In this document: positions 47,233-54,294 of the stretch, one piece after another | How positions within the stretch are numbered: the stretch's first letter is position 1 | Layout of the letters: the number at the start of each line of letters is the position of its first letter | NCBI RefSeq assembly: GCF_002156875.1 | Contig: NZ_NCSY01000002.1 | Location: 248,001-312,000 of the forward strand | Direction of reading: 5' to 3' | Source of the DNA: Bacillus sp. EAC | Lineage (GTDB): Bacteria > Bacillota > Bacilli > Bacillales > Bacillaceae_G | Length of the DNA stretch: 64,000 nucleotides | The notes under the pieces: generated by a model | The model's database searches: none | Seen by the model: only the letters and a program-made list of their open reading frames with translations | What the model was told of the DNA's origin: nothing | Program-made: the position numbers and the translations under genes

Positions 47233-49242
47233 ATGAAGAAATTACAAAAAAACATCATAACATTTACCCACCTGAAAAGGTATGGAATCATTTACCTTAT
47301 ACTTAGTTTATGTATTTCATTTTTACCACACTTTGCAAGAGCAGCTAGTACTCCTGAAGTGAATAATCTATATTCCACACCGCTAGCAACTTGGACTATT
47401 CATTCTTACAACAATCTAAATTTGGCAGGGATTCCGTTAAAGACAACGTCTATTACAACCAGTGCTTCTCCTATTAAATATACTTATCCAAATACAGATC
47501 CAAATCAGATAAAACTATTTCAATCCGTACGTTCTACAACTAATACTTCAATTCAAAGCGGAAAGTATTATTTAAATGTAGAATACGTAGGGAAAATTGC
47601 GATTTATATCGACAATAAATTAATCATCCAAGAAGAATCTTTACTTTCCTCAAAAAAAATTAAAAAGTCTATTTTAATTTCAGACCGATTAAATCAACCT
47701 ACATCACGAGATATCCACACAATTCGATTAGAACATGCAAATTTTCAAAATAATCCAATCCTTACTCTCTCATTAAATCCGATTCAACAAGCAGTAGATC
47801 TTAATCAGAAAGATATTGCTTATAATTGGGGCTATTTTGCTCCACTAGGTTATACCAGTGATTTATTTAATTTAACATTTATCAATACAACTAATTATTT
47901 AACTAATGATTATTTCGCGTCCCTTTATACAACAGACCAAACGAGTATCCATTTCGATGATAAAAAAATTTTAGAATCAAATCCAACGAGTAATAATATG
48001 CTTAATAATGCAGTTATTGAAAATGTACTTGAAGGGGAGCATACTGTAACAACAAATTTTACTGATTTAAATGGCGGAGAAGCTTCTCTCTTCTCTACAG
48101 TCGTACCTTTTTCTAATTGGGTAGCTTATTATTTTAACAATACTAGTTCTACCGGACTACCTGTCGCCAGACAAACACTCGCTAACCAAAGTTCTAATGT
48201 ACTTTTAAGGGCTAGTAATGAAGCAAATAGCCCGGTTCCAGGCATCGTAGCAAAAAATTATTATGGTGTAAGGTACATAATGTATAAGAGGATGACAGCA
48301 GGAACTTATCAACTAGAATATAAATCGGGTGAAGGAGTTGGTGTTTGGCTAGATGGTAAGCAAATCGCCTATGATTGGAAGGACGGAAAGAAGTCACTAA
48401 GAAAGATTTCATTCCAAATTAGTGATAATACCTTAAATTCAACTTCAAAAGATATACATCAAATTACAGTTCGCACTTATAACCGTAAAAGTCCACAAAA
48501 TATGCTTGTTTCAATAGCACCTACAGTAACTAGTCCAATTTCGCCAATTAAAACGGTAGTAATTGATGCTGGACATGGTGGTAAAGATACAGGAGCGATC
48601 GGTATAGGTGGGCTAAAGGAAAAGGATATTGTACTTGATGTAAGTAAAAAAGTTGAATCATTATTTAAAGAGATGACTCCTTATAAAATATATTTAACAA
48701 GGACTAACGATACATTTATCCCACTTGGTCAGCGTCCAGCTTTTGCAATTGCAAAAAAAGCTGATGCATTTGTCAGTATTCATGCGAATTCAGGAAGCTC
48801 ATCTGCAAGTGGTCTTGAAACTTATTATTACGGAATTAAACCATCGAGTACTTCAATGAATAAAATGGTTTCTCCTACTGGCCCGAGTAATAGCTCTTTC
48901 TTTTCAAAAGAGAGTTCAATTTTAGGCAATCTTGAAACAAGTGCATCCAACACAAATCCTTATATTACTGAAAGTAAATTATTAGCTTCATTCATTCAGA
49001 AACGTATGGTAACTGCTTTTCAACTACCTGATCGTGGATCGAAACATGGGAATTTCCAAGTAATTAGAGCGAATAAACTTCCAGCAGTTTTAACTGAATT
49101 AGGATTTGTAACGAATAAGAATGATGCAAGCAAGCTTAGCTCGCCATATTGGAGACAAATTGCTGCTGAAGCAATTTACATGGGGATATTAGACTTTTTT
49201 GAGAATAAAGGTAGCGATGTGACTAGCTACAGAATATTTTAA
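47233..49242 (+). CDS. Secreted N-acetylmuramoyl-L-alanine amidase
   Basis: This 669-residue protein has a membrane-type N-terminal signal (about 15-37), three PA14-like beta modules of roughly 120 residues each (for example 332-425, GTYQLEYKSGEGVGVWLDGKQIAYDW) and a C-terminal Amidase_3 domain from about 440. Zinc ligands H448 (DAGHGGKDTG), E463 and H517 (VSIHANSG) and the catalytic Glu E622 (VLTELGFVTN) are present. It should cut the amide bond between MurNAc and the stem peptide. PA14-like modules often bind carbohydrate, so they may target the wall. The ribosome site is weak (AAAGAAG before the ATG). The gene opens the plus-strand secretome block. Confidence 0.88.
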   Translation: MKKLQKNIITFTHLKRYGIIYLILSLCISFLPHFARAASTPEVNNLYSTPLATWTIHSYNNLNLAGIPLKTTSITTSASPIKYTYPNTDPNQIKLFQSVRSTTNTSIQSGKYYLNVEYVGKIAIYIDNKLIIQEESLLSSKKIKKSILISDRLNQPTSRDIHTIRLEHANFQNNPILTLSLNPIQQAVDLNQKDIAYNWGYFAPLGYTSDLFNLTFINTTNYLTNDYFASLYTTDQTSIHFDDKKILESNPTSNNMLNNAVIENVLEGEHTVTTNFTDLNGGEASLFSTVVPFSNWVAYYFNNTSSTGLPVARQTLANQSSNVLLRASNEANSPVPGIVAKNYYGVRYIMYKRMTAGTYQLEYKSGEGVGVWLDGKQIAYDWKDGKKSLRKISFQISDNTLNSTSKDIHQITVRTYNRKSPQNMLVSIAPTVTSPISPIKTVVIDAGHGGKDTGAIGIGGLKEKDIVLDVSKKVESLFKEMTPYKIYLTRTNDTFIPLGQRPAFAIAKKADAFVSIHANSGSSSASGLETYYYGIKPSSTSMNKMVSPTGPSNSSFFSKESSILGNLETSASNTNPYITESKLLASFIQKRMVTAFQLPDRGSKHGNFQVIRANKLPAVLTELGFVTNKNDASKLSSPYWRQIAAEAIYMGILDFFENKGSDVTSYRIF

Positions 49243-49297
49243 TGAACATTTTTTTTATTTAGTGAATGATTTACATTATTATATGTAAAGATAGTAA

Positions 49298-49411
49298 GAC
49301 TATCCAAAAAGTCGACATTCCTTGTACAATTTCTAGAAATTGTAATGCTGAGTACTGCAGTTTATGTGCACACTAGAACTGTAAGGTACCCTCGCGAATG
49401 CTTTTTGAGTC
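49298..49411 (+). ncRNA. Candidate structured RNA, three-way junction
   Basis: Paper folding gives an outer stem of GACT/AGTC (49298-49301 with 49408-49411), CAAAAAG/CTTTTTG (49305-49311 with 49401-49407) and CATTC/GAATG (49316-49320 with 49396-49400). Inside are a perfect 20 bp palindrome TACAATTTCTAGAAATTGTA (49325-49344) and a third stem GAG-TAC / GTA-CTC plus CAGTT/AACTG (49350-49393) with a 14 nt loop. It lies between the amidase gene and a sugar transferase gene. I match it to no family that I can verify. Confidence 0.4.
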
Positions 49412-49437
49412 GTAATGAAGTTGTAACAGAAAAACAA

Positions 49438-49465
49438 TTGATTTTTTTCTGTTAACCTTTATAAT
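49438..49465 (+). promoter_or_regulatory. Promoter of the sugar-phosphate transferase gene
   Basis: TTGATT (49438-49443), 16 bp, TATAAT (49460-49465). The leader of about 85 nt can form TAGGACA / TGGCCTA with an inner GCAATACTCTTGC hairpin (about 49498-49534). Confidence 0.6.
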
Positions 49466-49555
49466 TGGTATGATGTTAGATAAGTGACGTTATACATTAG
49501 GACATGTTGCAATACTCTTGCAGAAGTGGCCTAAATTATTAACTGGGGTGTTTAT

Positions 49556-50212
49556 ATGGCCTTACAGAATACTCAGCAAAAACTTGAAACAAGTTATTCG
49601 TTTCAAGTATTTGACTCAATTAGAAGAAAAAGTATTGTTTATTCATTTATAAAAAGAACGATGGATTTAATTTTATCATTAATGGCATTTATCATTACTG
49701 CCCCATTTGTTTTGTTCTTTATCGCGTTAATAAAAATTGATTCTCCAGGACCTGCTCTTTTCATTCAAGAACGAGTAGGATTAAACGGGAAGATTTTTAA
49801 AATATACAAGCTAAGAACGATGCGTATGGATGCTGAAGTAAATGGACCACAATGGGCTAGCACTGATGATCCTCGTATTACTAAATTAGGTAACTTTCTT
49901 AGAAAAACACGTATTGATGAATTACCTCAATTTGTAAATGTTATTCGTGGAGATATGAGTCTTGTTGGACCTAGGCCTGAAAGAGCGTTTTTTCTGGTTA
50001 AATTTAATCATGAAGTACCTGGCTTTACAAATCGTTTAGCTGTTAAACCAGGGTTAACTGGTTGGGCTCAGGTAAACGGTGGATATGAATTAACGCCAAA
50101 AGAAAAATTAGAGCTAGATCTATATTATATTGAGCATCAATCAATTCCGTTAGATATCCGCATTATGTTTAAGACAATAAAAGTGGTTCTAACAGGTGAA
50201 GGTGCTAGATAA
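49556..50212 (+). CDS. Undecaprenyl-phosphate sugar-phosphate transferase
   Basis: This 218-residue bacterial sugar transferase (WcaJ/EpsL/TuaA-like monotopic PGT) has one hydrophobic membrane segment (about 33-62) followed by the catalytic core: SPGPALFIQERVGLNGKIFKIYKLRTM, DELPQFVNVIRGDMSLVGPRPE and the C-terminal KPGLTGWAQVNGG. It moves a sugar-1-phosphate onto the lipid carrier as the first step of an exopolysaccharide or teichuronic-type polymer. No other polymer genes are nearby, so it stands alone. GGGGTG precedes the ATG and a terminator follows. Its promoter lies downstream of the structured element at 49298-49411. Confidence 0.92.
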   Translation: MALQNTQQKLETSYSFQVFDSIRRKSIVYSFIKRTMDLILSLMAFIITAPFVLFFIALIKIDSPGPALFIQERVGLNGKIFKIYKLRTMRMDAEVNGPQWASTDDPRITKLGNFLRKTRIDELPQFVNVIRGDMSLVGPRPERAFFLVKFNHEVPGFTNRLAVKPGLTGWAQVNGGYELTPKEKLELDLYYIEHQSIPLDIRIMFKTIKVVLTGEGAR

Positions 50213-50262
50213 ACAGTAGCGAAAAGTACGAACAAATTATTACAAAAAATTACAAAACTGAA

Positions 50263-50289
50263 GGAGAGCATTTTCTATGCTCTCTTTTT
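50263..50289 (+). terminator. Terminator of the sugar transferase gene
   Basis: GAGAGCAT, loop TTTCT, ATGCTCTC then TTTTTATTTTT. Confidence 0.8.
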
Positions 50290-50312
50290 ATTTTTCTGTA
50301 CTTTTATAAAAG

Positions 50313-50548
50313 TTTTCCACATTTTCTAACGATTTTCACTAAGTTATTCACATTATGTGGATAAGACGTTCAAGTTATCCACATATTCTGTGGAAATACA
50401 CTTTTTCGTTTTATTTTCTTCCATGGCTAAATAAATTCAGTAAATACAATATCTTCTATATTTCTACATTTTTCTCGAAGTTTTTAAGATACTTCTTAAA
50501 TTAATTTATTAACATGTTTAAATTAACTTTACCCACAAGTTATCCACA
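50313..50548. promoter_or_regulatory. Cluster of DnaA-box-like sites
   Basis: Seven 9-mers fit or nearly fit TTATCCACA: 50313-50321 TTTTCCACA, 50344-50352 TTATTCACA, 50356-50364 TTATCCACA (minus), 50375-50383 TTATCCACA, 50389-50397 ATTTCCACA (minus), 50529-50537 TTACCCACA, 50540-50548 TTATCCACA. Three are perfect. Four form two inverted pairs spaced 3 and 5 bp. No dnaA or dnaN is nearby, so this is a DnaA-titration or regulatory cluster rather than oriC. Confidence 0.75.
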
Positions 50549-50591
50549 AGTAACCGTTTTTCTTTTTCAGTATGATTGGAGATTGGTAGTT

Positions 50592-50723
50592 TTCTATTCC
50601 AGGATGCTCGTTTTCCGATGGATAGACGGCGGTGAGCCTTTTTAGCATAATCACAGCTGAGGGCTATTACCTGTCCAGCAGCTCCCAGAGGATTCTTCTC
50701 GTACTTCCCGCTTCCAGTCATCC
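50592..50723. repeat. Intergenic repeat, copy 3 (diverged)
   Basis: Recognisable by TTCCAGGATGCTCGTTTTCC at the left, GGCGGTGAGCC and CTGTCCAGCAGCTCCCAGAGGA in the middle and CTTCCAGTCATCC at the right, with many substitutions relative to copy 1. Confidence 0.7.
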
Positions 50724-50922
50724 TTTTTATTACCAGTTTTTTTTAACAAAATAACAAACTTATAAAGATGGCCTTTCATTATTCTCTATCCTCTTTCTTC
50801 TATATTAAATGTAAATAAATTATTATAAGTTTAGATAATTAAGTATTATCTGGTTGAATTTTTAGTATAATTAAATCTACTAATTCAATTAAATTAGAAA
50901 ACACTTGAAAAGAGGGGTCTGT

Positions 50923-53900
50923 TTGAGAAAATCCTTTAAGTACACAGTTGCCTTTACTCTAGCAGCGAGTTTACTTTCTACGAACTCAGTCTTTGCTTCG
51001 ACTTCGAAAAAGCCATTTAGGACAAATTTTGTTAAAGAGAGTGAACCACTACCTTTTTTAAGAAGCAAAAATGAAACAAGCGAAACTACCTATGTCGTTA
51101 AATATAAAAACTCGATTTCATCGACTATACATAAGCGTGCAGGAATGAACATTGTAAAGTCATTCCCTACTTTAGGCTATGACATCGTAAAAATTCAATC
51201 TGGCAAAAAATTAGCATCTGCTTTATCAATCTACAATCAATATTCAGATATCGTTTCTATTTCACCAAGTGTGCAATATAAATATATGTCAACTGCTGCA
51301 AACCCTAAAGAAGACGAGGCGTATCATTTAGCTCAACTTAAGATTTCGTCTGCACAAAAGCTTGTTGCAAATAAGCCAATTACAGTTGCAGTTATCGATC
51401 AAGGTGTAGATACTAGTCATCCAGATCTTACTGGTAGAATACTAGGTTCATATAATGTAGTAAACCCTGCTTCAAAAGGAGCAAGAGAATTTCATGGTAC
51501 ACATGTAGCAGGTATTATTGCTGCAACGAAAAATAACAAATTAGGTGCATATGGAGTCAATCCAAATGCAAAAATCCTATCTGTAAATGTATTTGATGGC
51601 AATCCTTATACATCAGATTATACAATCTCAGAAGGTATTTTATATGCTGTCCAAAAAGGCGCAAAAGTTATTAATATGAGTCTTGGCGGTTCTACGTACA
51701 GTCAACTTCTTGAAGATACGATTCAATATGCGGTAAGTAAAGGGGTAGTTGTTGTTGCTGCGGCTGGAAATAGCGGAATCAATGAATATAGCTATCCTGC
51801 TTCATATGATGGCGTTATTTCTGTTGGTGCTACAAACAGTGAGCGTAAGTTAGCTTCATTTTCAACGTTTGGTCCAGGTGTAGATGTAGTCGCTCCTGGT
51901 GAGTTTATTTATAGTACGATTTACGACCCAGCAATTGGCAGTTCTTACTATTATTTAAGTGGGACATCTATGGCAACCCCGATCGTTAGTGGTATTGCAT
52001 CTCTATTAAAAACAAAACATCCAAGTCTATCATCTTATGATGTGGAACAAATATTAGAAGAAACCGCTACTGACCGTGGTACAACTGGATACGATATTAA
52101 ATATGGCTATGGATTAGTTGATCCAGTTAAAGCATTATCTTATGACTTAAAAAGATTAGCTTCTTATAAGCCTATTTCTGAAGCAGGTATTTTATCAAGT
52201 GCATCAACTATAAATCTTTCAGCAAACAATGAAGCATCTTTAAATGGTTCAATTACAAAGCCTCATCAAACTTTCCGCTATAAAGTAAATGTTAAAAGTG
52301 GTGACGCTATTGGACTTACTTTAAAAATGGCAAAAGACTATGATGACCAAATGTCACTTCGTTTCTATGAAGGAACTAGCACAAAATCATCAAAACCAGT
52401 CATTATTGACGAAGTATTAGCTGGAAAAGATGAAGGCACAGTTTACCAAGCACCAAAAGATGGCACGCTTGTTATCGAAGTAAAGGATAAGAATTCAAGA
52501 TATAGTTTACAAGGGAAATCGACATTTACCCTTGGTGTTAAACATCAATCAGTTACAAATGGGGACACAGCTACAAAATCAAATCCATACTCAGTAACTA
52601 ATTTGCCGTTTAACACAGAAGTGTTATCTAATCCACTTCAGCTTTTCAATAAAGGTGAAATTGGCGCAAGATATATTGCTTTCCAACCAACTAATGAACA
52701 AGCAGTATTAATGTCATTAGAATCAATCCCTGGTGTAAACAGCTCAATCAATATTTATTCAAAGGATGAATGGGATCAATATTTAGGTAGACAAGATAAA
52801 AATCAACTATTACCAATGTATTCAATTGATACAAATGGTAAGAGCGTTGGTGAAAAAGGTTCATTTACGTTTATGAAAGATACGGAATATGTAATTGAAA
52901 TTTCAAGTTCACCAAATACGATCTTTACTTTACCAAAATATGATGAACAGCCTAATTTATCCGTTCCATATACTGGTTCACTGGAAAACGTTAAGTTTTC
53001 AATGTCTACTTTAAATCTTCCTGAAGACGAGGATGGTTTAACAAATAGTATGACGATTGAAGATTCCAACTACTTAACACAAAATGTCGGTATTGTGGAT
53101 ACGAACGATACGCAACAAATTATCGATCAAGCACGTCCGATTACACAAAATGCAGCATCTACTGCTTACATTCAATCAGATAATGATGCAGACTGGTATA
53201 AATACACTCCAAGCAATAACAATTTAACTCAATTCAATTTAAATGGTAAAAAAGAACAACAGTTAAATGCTGAACTGTATGTGTATAACACTGAGAAGAA
53301 AAAATTAGAATTTGTAAGTTCTTCAAATAATTATTATACAGATCAAAGTTATATCGAGAACAACCAAGATATTTTCACAGGACTAGAAAAAGGTAGAACA
53401 TATTATGTTCGTGTCTCTTCGTTTGGTGGTGTAACAGACTTACCTTATAAGTTAACTTTTAAATCTCATGGTGAACTTGGAAACGATGAATTCGAACCAA
53501 ATAATGATTTTGAAAACGCAAGTCCAATCAAAAGTTATAATGAGCTATACGGTAACTTCTCATCATCTAACGATGTAGACTATTATTACTTTAAAAATAC
53601 TAGTGCTCAAACGGTCCTTAAAGGTTTTGAGTTTATGGCATTCCCTCTTTCTGAAGACGAAACAGGTACAATACCAAAAATGTTAACAGAAGACACACCG
53701 ATTAATGTGACAGTTTATGAAGATACAAATGGCAATAAAAAACTAGATGGCACCGAATCGGAAAAAGGAAGTTTCTACCAAAACTATGGTGATTTTACAA
53801 AAGGTTCGTTCCAAGCAAAACCAAAATATGGCTACTTTATTGAAGTTGCCAATGCATATACAGATATTCCAAACATTCATCAGTATGGATTCCGTTTTTA

Positions 53901-54294
53901 TTCAATGAACAGAGTTGATGAAGATGCAAAAGCGAAGTACAAAAATGGTCTTCCATCAATTATGCTTCCACTAAAAAAATCTGGATCATCAACGTATGTA
54001 GGAAATGGCTATTTAAACGCTAATGTAGCAAATGGCGATAAAGATTACTTTAGATTTGTTAATGACAAAACACGTACCATTTCATTCTCACTAGAGATGC
54101 CAGCTGTTGGGATGAATGGAAAAGTATCATTCTATGATAGCAAAGGAAAGCGTATTGCAAGTTTTGACAGATATACATTCAACGATTCTGAAATTGGTCA
54201 AATTACATTGAAAAAAGGTAATTACTACATTCGTGTAGAAGAAGTTAATGGTGTCGCAGATTACGATCAATACCAACTAATTATTCAAAAATAA
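50923..54294 (+). CDS. Large secreted subtilase (S8) with C-terminal beta domains
   Basis: This 1123-residue protease has a signal peptide (1-26, cleavage after SVFA), an inhibitor-like propeptide (about 40-125) and a subtilisin domain (130-400) with catalytic D159 (VIDQGVD), H191 (FHGTHVAG) and S349 (SGTSMATP). The remaining 700 residues are repeated beta domains resembling PPC modules (for example near 840-950, FEPNNDFENASPIKS). It should be an exported endopeptidase. TTG 50923 is chosen as start because AAGAGGGG lies five bases ahead; the TTG six codons earlier overlaps that site. DnaA boxes and repeat copy 3 lie in its long upstream region. DegU control is plausible but no site is claimed. 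Confidence 0.92.
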   Translation: MRKSFKYTVAFTLAASLLSTNSVFASTSKKPFRTNFVKESEPLPFLRSKNETSETTYVVKYKNSISSTIHKRAGMNIVKSFPTLGYDIVKIQSGKKLASALSIYNQYSDIVSISPSVQYKYMSTAANPKEDEAYHLAQLKISSAQKLVANKPITVAVIDQGVDTSHPDLTGRILGSYNVVNPASKGAREFHGTHVAGIIAATKNNKLGAYGVNPNAKILSVNVFDGNPYTSDYTISEGILYAVQKGAKVINMSLGGSTYSQLLEDTIQYAVSKGVVVVAAAGNSGINEYSYPASYDGVISVGATNSERKLASFSTFGPGVDVVAPGEFIYSTIYDPAIGSSYYYLSGTSMATPIVSGIASLLKTKHPSLSSYDVEQILEETATDRGTTGYDIKYGYGLVDPVKALSYDLKRLASYKPISEAGILSSASTINLSANNEASLNGSITKPHQTFRYKVNVKSGDAIGLTLKMAKDYDDQMSLRFYEGTSTKSSKPVIIDEVLAGKDEGTVYQAPKDGTLVIEVKDKNSRYSLQGKSTFTLGVKHQSVTNGDTATKSNPYSVTNLPFNTEVLSNPLQLFNKGEIGARYIAFQPTNEQAVLMSLESIPGVNSSINIYSKDEWDQYLGRQDKNQLLPMYSIDTNGKSVGEKGSFTFMKDTEYVIEISSSPNTIFTLPKYDEQPNLSVPYTGSLENVKFSMSTLNLPEDEDGLTNSMTIEDSNYLTQNVGIVDTNDTQQIIDQARPITQNAASTAYIQSDNDADWYKYTPSNNNLTQFNLNGKKEQQLNAELYVYNTEKKKLEFVSSSNNYYTDQSYIENNQDIFTGLEKGRTYYVRVSSFGGVTDLPYKLTFKSHGELGNDEFEPNNDFENASPIKSYNELYGNFSSSNDVDYYYFKNTSAQTVLKGFEFMAFPLSEDETGTIPKMLTEDTPINVTVYEDTNGNKKLDGTESEKGSFYQNYGDFTKGSFQAKPKYGYFIEVANAYTDIPNIHQYGFRFYSMNRVDEDAKAKYKNGLPSIMLPLKKSGSSTYVGNGYLNANVANGDKDYFRFVNDKTRTISFSLEMPAVGMNGKVSFYDSKGKRIASFDRYTFNDSEIGQITLKKGNYYIRVEEVNGVADYDQYQLIIQK

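Follow-up and report, generated by a model that had tools for sequence, protein, structure and literature searches.

The window analysed here, a stretch of 64 kb, comes from a draft genome (4.33 Mb in 28 contigs) that by its sequence belongs to the genus Gottfriedia. A predicted cluster of DnaA boxes (50313..50548, no strand assigned) lies in an intergenic region of 692 bp (50213-50904), measured from the stop codon of a transferase gene to the longest open reading frame of a subtilase gene; the initial annotation had put this region at about 700 bp. The gene on the left (49556..50212, plus strand) encodes a bacterial sugar transferase (PF02397) and is found 5' of the cluster in all 13 genomes compared. 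Its product is closest to that of G. solisilvae, with 95% identity, in a comparison from which the genome's own record was possibly left out. A consensus scan places a hairpin resembling an intrinsic terminator between this gene and the cluster (50260..50288, plus strand). Farther to the left are amidase, UPF0029, LytR-type and degS genes, of which we take the UPF0029 gene to be yvyE. The gene on the right (50923..54294, plus strand; longest reading frame from 50905) encodes an S8 subtilase, and the last box of the cluster ends 357-375 bp ahead of its start codon, depending on which TTG is chosen. The S8 domain is the only Pfam match of the subtilase, no NCBIfam cut-off is reached, and among solved structures its best matches are subtilisin-type S8 chains.

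A search of positions 49000-51500 against Rfam at the gathering threshold gave no match. Between the cluster and the subtilase gene there is a G+C-richer intergenic repeat (50577-50700) with 23 matches in the same genome, itself included; the other copies are 68-93% identical over parts of its length. The alignment shows no copy of it at the locus of G. solisilvae, and as an RNA it folds no better than shuffled sequences (z 0.99).

Boxes were scored by their mismatches to the consensus TTATCCACA. Within 236 bp the cluster holds three perfect boxes, three more that deviate at one position and a seventh that deviates at two, so the seven DnaA-like 9-mers of the initial annotation were recovered by the scan. 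They form two sub-clusters. The left one (50313-50397) comprises TTTTCCACA at 50313..50321 (plus strand, one mismatch), TTATTCACA at 50344..50352 (plus strand, one mismatch), a perfect box at 50356..50364 (minus strand) that is identical in 13 of 13 genomes, a perfect box at 50375..50383 (plus strand) that carries one mismatch in a single genome (G008), and the DnaA-like box ATTTCCACA at 50389..50397 (minus strand, two mismatches). The right one (50529-50548) comprises TTACCCACA at 50529..50537 (plus strand, one mismatch) and a perfect box at 50540..50548 (plus strand). Besides the box at 50389-50397, a further 9-mer with two mismatches is listed at 50506. The two inverted pairs noticed earlier are present, with 3 bp between the boxes at 50344 and 50356 and 5 bp between those at 50375 and 50389. 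The conserved core of the cluster (50344..50383, no strand assigned) consists of TTATTCACA, 3 bp, TGTGGATAA, 10 bp and TTATCCACA.

Clustering of DnaA boxes in the window and in the genome

When the window was shuffled 300 times with dinucleotide composition preserved, the densest 236-bp stretch of a shuffle held one to three boxes (perfect or with a single mismatch), as against six at the cluster, and no shuffle came to four in that length. Likewise, 3000 shuffles of the 692-bp intergenic stretch alone never placed more than three boxes in it. When perfect and one-mismatch boxes are counted together, the window as a whole has 29; its shuffles average 22.66, and 12 of 100 reach 29. Thus, the box total over the 64 kb is not in clear excess, and it is the clustering that is exceptional.

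The same holds for whole genomes. The draft genome has 59 perfect boxes against 50 matches to a reversed-pattern control, which is a crude one, and for four other Gottfriedia genomes the corresponding figures are 58 and 65 (G001), 67 and 62 (G002), 66 and 64 (G004) and 65 and 64 (G011). Because the excess is small or absent in these five genomes, totals are uninformative and only clustering tells. In other genera, the totals exceed the control in G016 (55 vs 43) and in G015 (63 vs 34). In the draft genome 24 of the 59 perfect boxes sit at clusters and oriC, for which reason isolated perfect boxes may be depleted.

Only six places in the draft genome have at least three perfect boxes within 600 bp, and among them are the site described here and oriC, where perfect TTATCCACA boxes lie upstream of dnaA. 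The host DnaA carries PF00308 and PF08299, and its oriC uses the same box. The other four places, with genes named by family search where possible and otherwise by reading, are between tsaD (gcp) and an ABC-F gene (ydiF by position), between a SAV0927-like gene and yutD (L003:6007-6158; C21:32006-32165 on the draft contig), between the threonylcarbamoyladenylate synthase gene (ywlC) and a reading frame without a Pfam match (ywlB by position), and between rlmH (yydA) and a gene of the MBL fold. Two further sites have fewer perfect boxes: a pair of them between sda (PF08970) and yqeG (L007:6344-6435), and, upstream of spoIIQ (L008:5931-6030; C21:417930-418029), one perfect box accompanied by four that have one mismatch. 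All seven clusters outside oriC are also present in the closed genome G011; B. subtilis has six. Counts of boxes with at most one mismatch per 300 bp, taken around centres set by hand, are 6 at the cluster, 7 at oriC, 7 at gcp/ydiF, 6 at ywlC, 5 each at yutD, rlmH and spoIIQ, and 3 at sda/yqeG. The density at the cluster is therefore like that at oriC and gcp/ydiF of the same genome.

The likeness to the clusters outside oriC of B. subtilis lies in several boxes of the TTATCCACA type within a few hundred intergenic base pairs. For four of the six such B. subtilis sites, the draft genome has a cluster beside the same genes (gcp/ydiF, ywlC, rlmH and sda/yqeG). The trmE-jag gap of the draft genome, whose flanking genes were identified by reading, contains no box even when two mismatches are allowed. 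Among the sites listed for B. subtilis, the one nearest to our locus on the gene map is the weak site of rank 18, inside ggaA. The strongest in-vitro sites are given as two at oriC and those at ywcI/vpr, gcp/ydiF, trmE/jag, ywlC, yqeG/sda and yydA (PMC4447404). The top-20 list in that source has no intergenic entry 3' of a sugar transferase gene in the degS-lytR-yvyE region (PMC4447404). The yutD cluster also lacks an intergenic counterpart in this list, where rank 16 lies inside yutJ (PMC4447404). Boxes between sda and yqeG suggest that the arrangement by which DnaA is linked to Sda in B. subtilis appears to be kept in Gottfriedia, and the spoIIQ cluster, seen in the draft genome and in G011, might tie DnaA to spoIIQ, a sporulation gene.

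Conservation of the core and turnover of its surroundings

An orthologue of the transferase gene was found in all 12 other Gottfriedia genomes, with 86-95% identity, and in 11 of them a box cluster follows within 1.5 kb on its 3' side. In the twelfth, G. endophytica (G004), a reading frame of 238 amino acids without a Pfam match lies between the two, and the cluster is found about 2.4 kb 3' of the transferase gene. The initial annotation had suggested a comparison with close relatives, in which loss of the boxes would count against it; the core is kept in 12 of 12. Its form in all 13 genomes is TTATNNACA, 3 bp (4 in G004), TGTGGATAA, 10 bp and TT[AG]TCCACA, where the search pattern itself required the spacing of 10 bp and the box pair served to select the stretch in G004. 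In ten relatives the 9-mer at the position of 50344..50352 is TTATTAACA, with two mismatches.

In an alignment of the 13 loci with the draft genome as reference, box columns are 90% identical against 50% elsewhere, and none of 20000 random sets of 9-mers scored as high. With G011 as reference the figures are 84% and 59% (2 of 20000 sets as high), and with G. solisilvae they are 70% and 51% (588 of 20000), the weaker result being due to the rearranged right-hand sub-cluster of that genome. Within the ten acidiceleris-like genomes, box columns reach 99% against 75% (0 of 20000). The genomes compared share kinship, so these random-set tests are not independent. Boxes outside the core vary in number and place between relatives, and the right-hand sub-cluster was not found in the alignable part of G. 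endophytica.

The ten acidiceleris-like genomes (among them L041, L042, L044 and L046) have a conserved TGTCGATAA 3' of the transferase gene, a minus-strand DnaA box with one mismatch, which did not align in the draft genome. TGTCGATAA resembles a Spo0A box too.

The cluster is constant and the gene to its right is not. A subtilase gene directly adjoins it in only two of the 13 genomes, the draft genome and G. solisilvae. In ten others the cluster lies between convergent genes, the next reading frame of at least 100 amino acids being a convergent SLT/Big_6 gene (read at eight loci, namely six titled ones, G002 and G011, and identified by tblastn in G006 and G007). In G. endophytica two convergent genes separate the cluster from the subtilase gene, one for a PTS EIIC protein (by Pfam) and a small one that is EIIB-like by reading. 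G002 has a subtilase relative at 65% elsewhere in its genome, and the best subtilase matches in the remaining nine genomes of the genus are distant (best E 1e-38 to 1e-50).

For a wider view, a sample of 397 genomes from the order, taken out of a larger group, was searched for the 28-bp pair of perfect divergent boxes spaced 10 bp apart. It occurs in 14 of them, and the reversed-pattern control in none. Eleven of the 14 are Gottfriedia, each with the pair at the cluster locus; the draw contained 12 members of the genus, of which G008 misses the pair by one base, and G003 fell outside it. The other three genomes have the pair in clusters at other genes, as judged by eye: G019 and G065, two genomes of one genus in another family, at the 3' end of a tsaD-like (gcp) frame, where in G065 the opposite flank is an ABC-F-like frame, and G138 beside an HtrA-like frame.

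Six of six genomes from three other genera of the family have zero to two one-mismatch boxes within 1.5 kb of yvyE, a scan that is weak by itself because the cluster lies 3.3 kb from yvyE in the window. Only G015 and G016, in which any perfect box is more than 26 and 160 kb away, respectively, are real negatives. Seven more distant transferase loci (L052-L058 of the set L052-L068) showed zero to four scattered one-mismatch boxes and no cluster. As far as we looked, the cluster site is known only from Gottfriedia, and because none was seen near yvyE in the six genomes of other genera, it may be young.

The initial annotation described the cluster as far from any replication gene. This is true locally; in the closed genome G011, the distance to oriC is about 290 kb, or 6% of the chromosome. 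In the four genomes measured, cluster and dnaA are 290 kb (G011), 303 kb (G001), 299 kb (G002) and 338 kb (G004) apart, and in the draft genome they lie on different contigs. Along the G011 chromosome the cluster is at 4400 kb, spoIIQ at 4475 kb and ywlC at 4518 kb, the cluster being farthest from oriC.

These positions bear on the likeness to the vpr cluster of B. subtilis that was initially drawn from the adjacent subtilase gene. The vpr cluster lies at a similar distance from oriC, about 330 kb. It is given at 3886 kb, nearer to oriC than ywlC at 3772 kb (PMC4447404), whereas the Gottfriedia cluster lies outside ywlC as seen from oriC (G011), and we reject it as a positional counterpart of ywcI/vpr. 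The constant flank is the sugar transferase gene and the subtilase gene is adjacent in two genomes only, so the parallel, judged by position and neighbouring genes, is not supported and is probably a coincidence.

A candidate site for DnaA sequestration

DnaA very probably binds at the cluster. The best reading of the site, to which we give a probability of roughly 60%, is that of a cluster outside oriC of the B. subtilis type, specific to this lineage, which would sequester DnaA and delay initiation; with about the same probability, sequestration and initiation timing would be what the cluster is kept for. A DnaA-titrating cluster, as initially proposed, is the best-supported interpretation, which the core kept in relatives does not refute, while the vpr parallel is unsupported; binding and timing are what we infer.

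In the proposed mechanism, DnaA would bind the boxes cooperatively, with the conserved core as the site of nucleation and the perfect minus-strand box together with the plus-strand box 10 bp on as the nucleus. At some 6% of the chromosome from oriC, the cluster would be copied soon after initiation and so double in number. The doubled cluster, along with the other clusters, would then take up free DnaA and keep oriC from firing again too early.

For B. subtilis it is reported that deletion of six such clusters leads to early initiation (PMC5295017, PMC13220808) and that the ATP form of DnaA has an apparent Kd of 0.13-0.33 micromolar for six clusters outside oriC (PMC4447404). Against sequestration we count a result given in PMC13220808, where tenfold overproduction of DnaA did not lead to over-initiation. 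Our search of the literature found nothing on DnaA in Gottfriedia or on titrating DnaA-box clusters in Bacillaceae, a basis too narrow for calling either absent from print.

A less probable role is that of a nucleation site for DnaA that does more than titrate, either by altering the nucleotide state of DnaA, as datA and DARS do in E. coli, or by arranging the chromosome near the origin. The fixed arrangement of the core, whose divergent boxes are 10 bp apart in 13 of 13 genomes (a spacing that the search pattern asked for), suggests that a defined complex forms here and that the number of boxes is not all that matters. Set against this, the remaining boxes turn over in number and place, and datA, DARS1, DARS2 and IHF are described as absent from B. 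subtilis in the account of PMC13220808. Like the cluster, the E. coli loci are non-coding, carry DnaA boxes and lie at a distance from oriC, and they are described as tuning initiation; they differ in acting through the nucleotide state of DnaA, in the case of datA together with IHF (PMC5295017).

It is rather improbable that DnaA bound here regulates the transcription of an adjacent gene, as it does for sda or vpr in B. subtilis, where at its clusters DnaA is reported to activate sda and, apparently, to repress vpr and further genes (PMC4447404). The subtilase gene does start 3' of the cluster in the draft genome and in G. solisilvae, but in the draft genome its start codon is 357-375 bp past the last box, and the terminator-like hairpin separates the transferase gene from the cluster. 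In 10 of the 13 genomes the 3' ends of both neighbours face the cluster, and these genomes have retained the core nonetheless. Control of the subtilase gene, adjacent in two genomes, thus cannot explain the conservation, and for the ten genomes with a convergent neighbour we reject expression control as its reason. The earlier suggestion that the cluster could regulate its flanking genes fails as an explanation of why it is kept.

An accessory or relict replication origin is highly improbable. Box density approaches that of oriC (6 vs 7 in 300 bp) and the box sequence is the same, but the neighbours that were read include no replication gene, the GC skew over the surrounding 22 kb shows a local rise over plus-strand genes and no lasting switch, and dnaA lies 290-338 kb away in the four genomes measured and has a box cluster of its own in the draft genome. 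The cluster is neither beside dnaA/dnaN nor at a skew switch and has no sign of initiation, and so it is not oriC itself. Least of all do we believe in a chance grouping of AT-rich 9-mers, which would fit the unremarkable box total of the window but is at odds with the 300 shuffles, none of which reached four boxes in 236 bp, and is already contradicted by conservation across 13 genomes.

Sequestration of DnaA in the service of initiation timing would fit a cluster that is kept beside differing neighbours, since this makes replication timing a likelier role than control of those genes. As a tentative extension, Gottfriedia may have gained DnaA sinks of its own (the cluster site, yutD and spoIIQ), with none seen at trmE-jag, which would hold the number of clusters close to that of B. 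subtilis (seven outside oriC as against six); the set would turn over while its summed capacity and its dosage near oriC are under selection, and the core with its 10-bp spacing would be a defined complex, the nucleus of the sinks. In Gram-positive bacteria, whether clusters outside oriC serve timing or gene control is unsettled, and the accounts in PMC5295017 and PMC13220808 differ. The Gottfriedia locus amounts to a natural experiment, in which a conserved cluster with changing neighbours separates the two roles and offers a clean place to test them.
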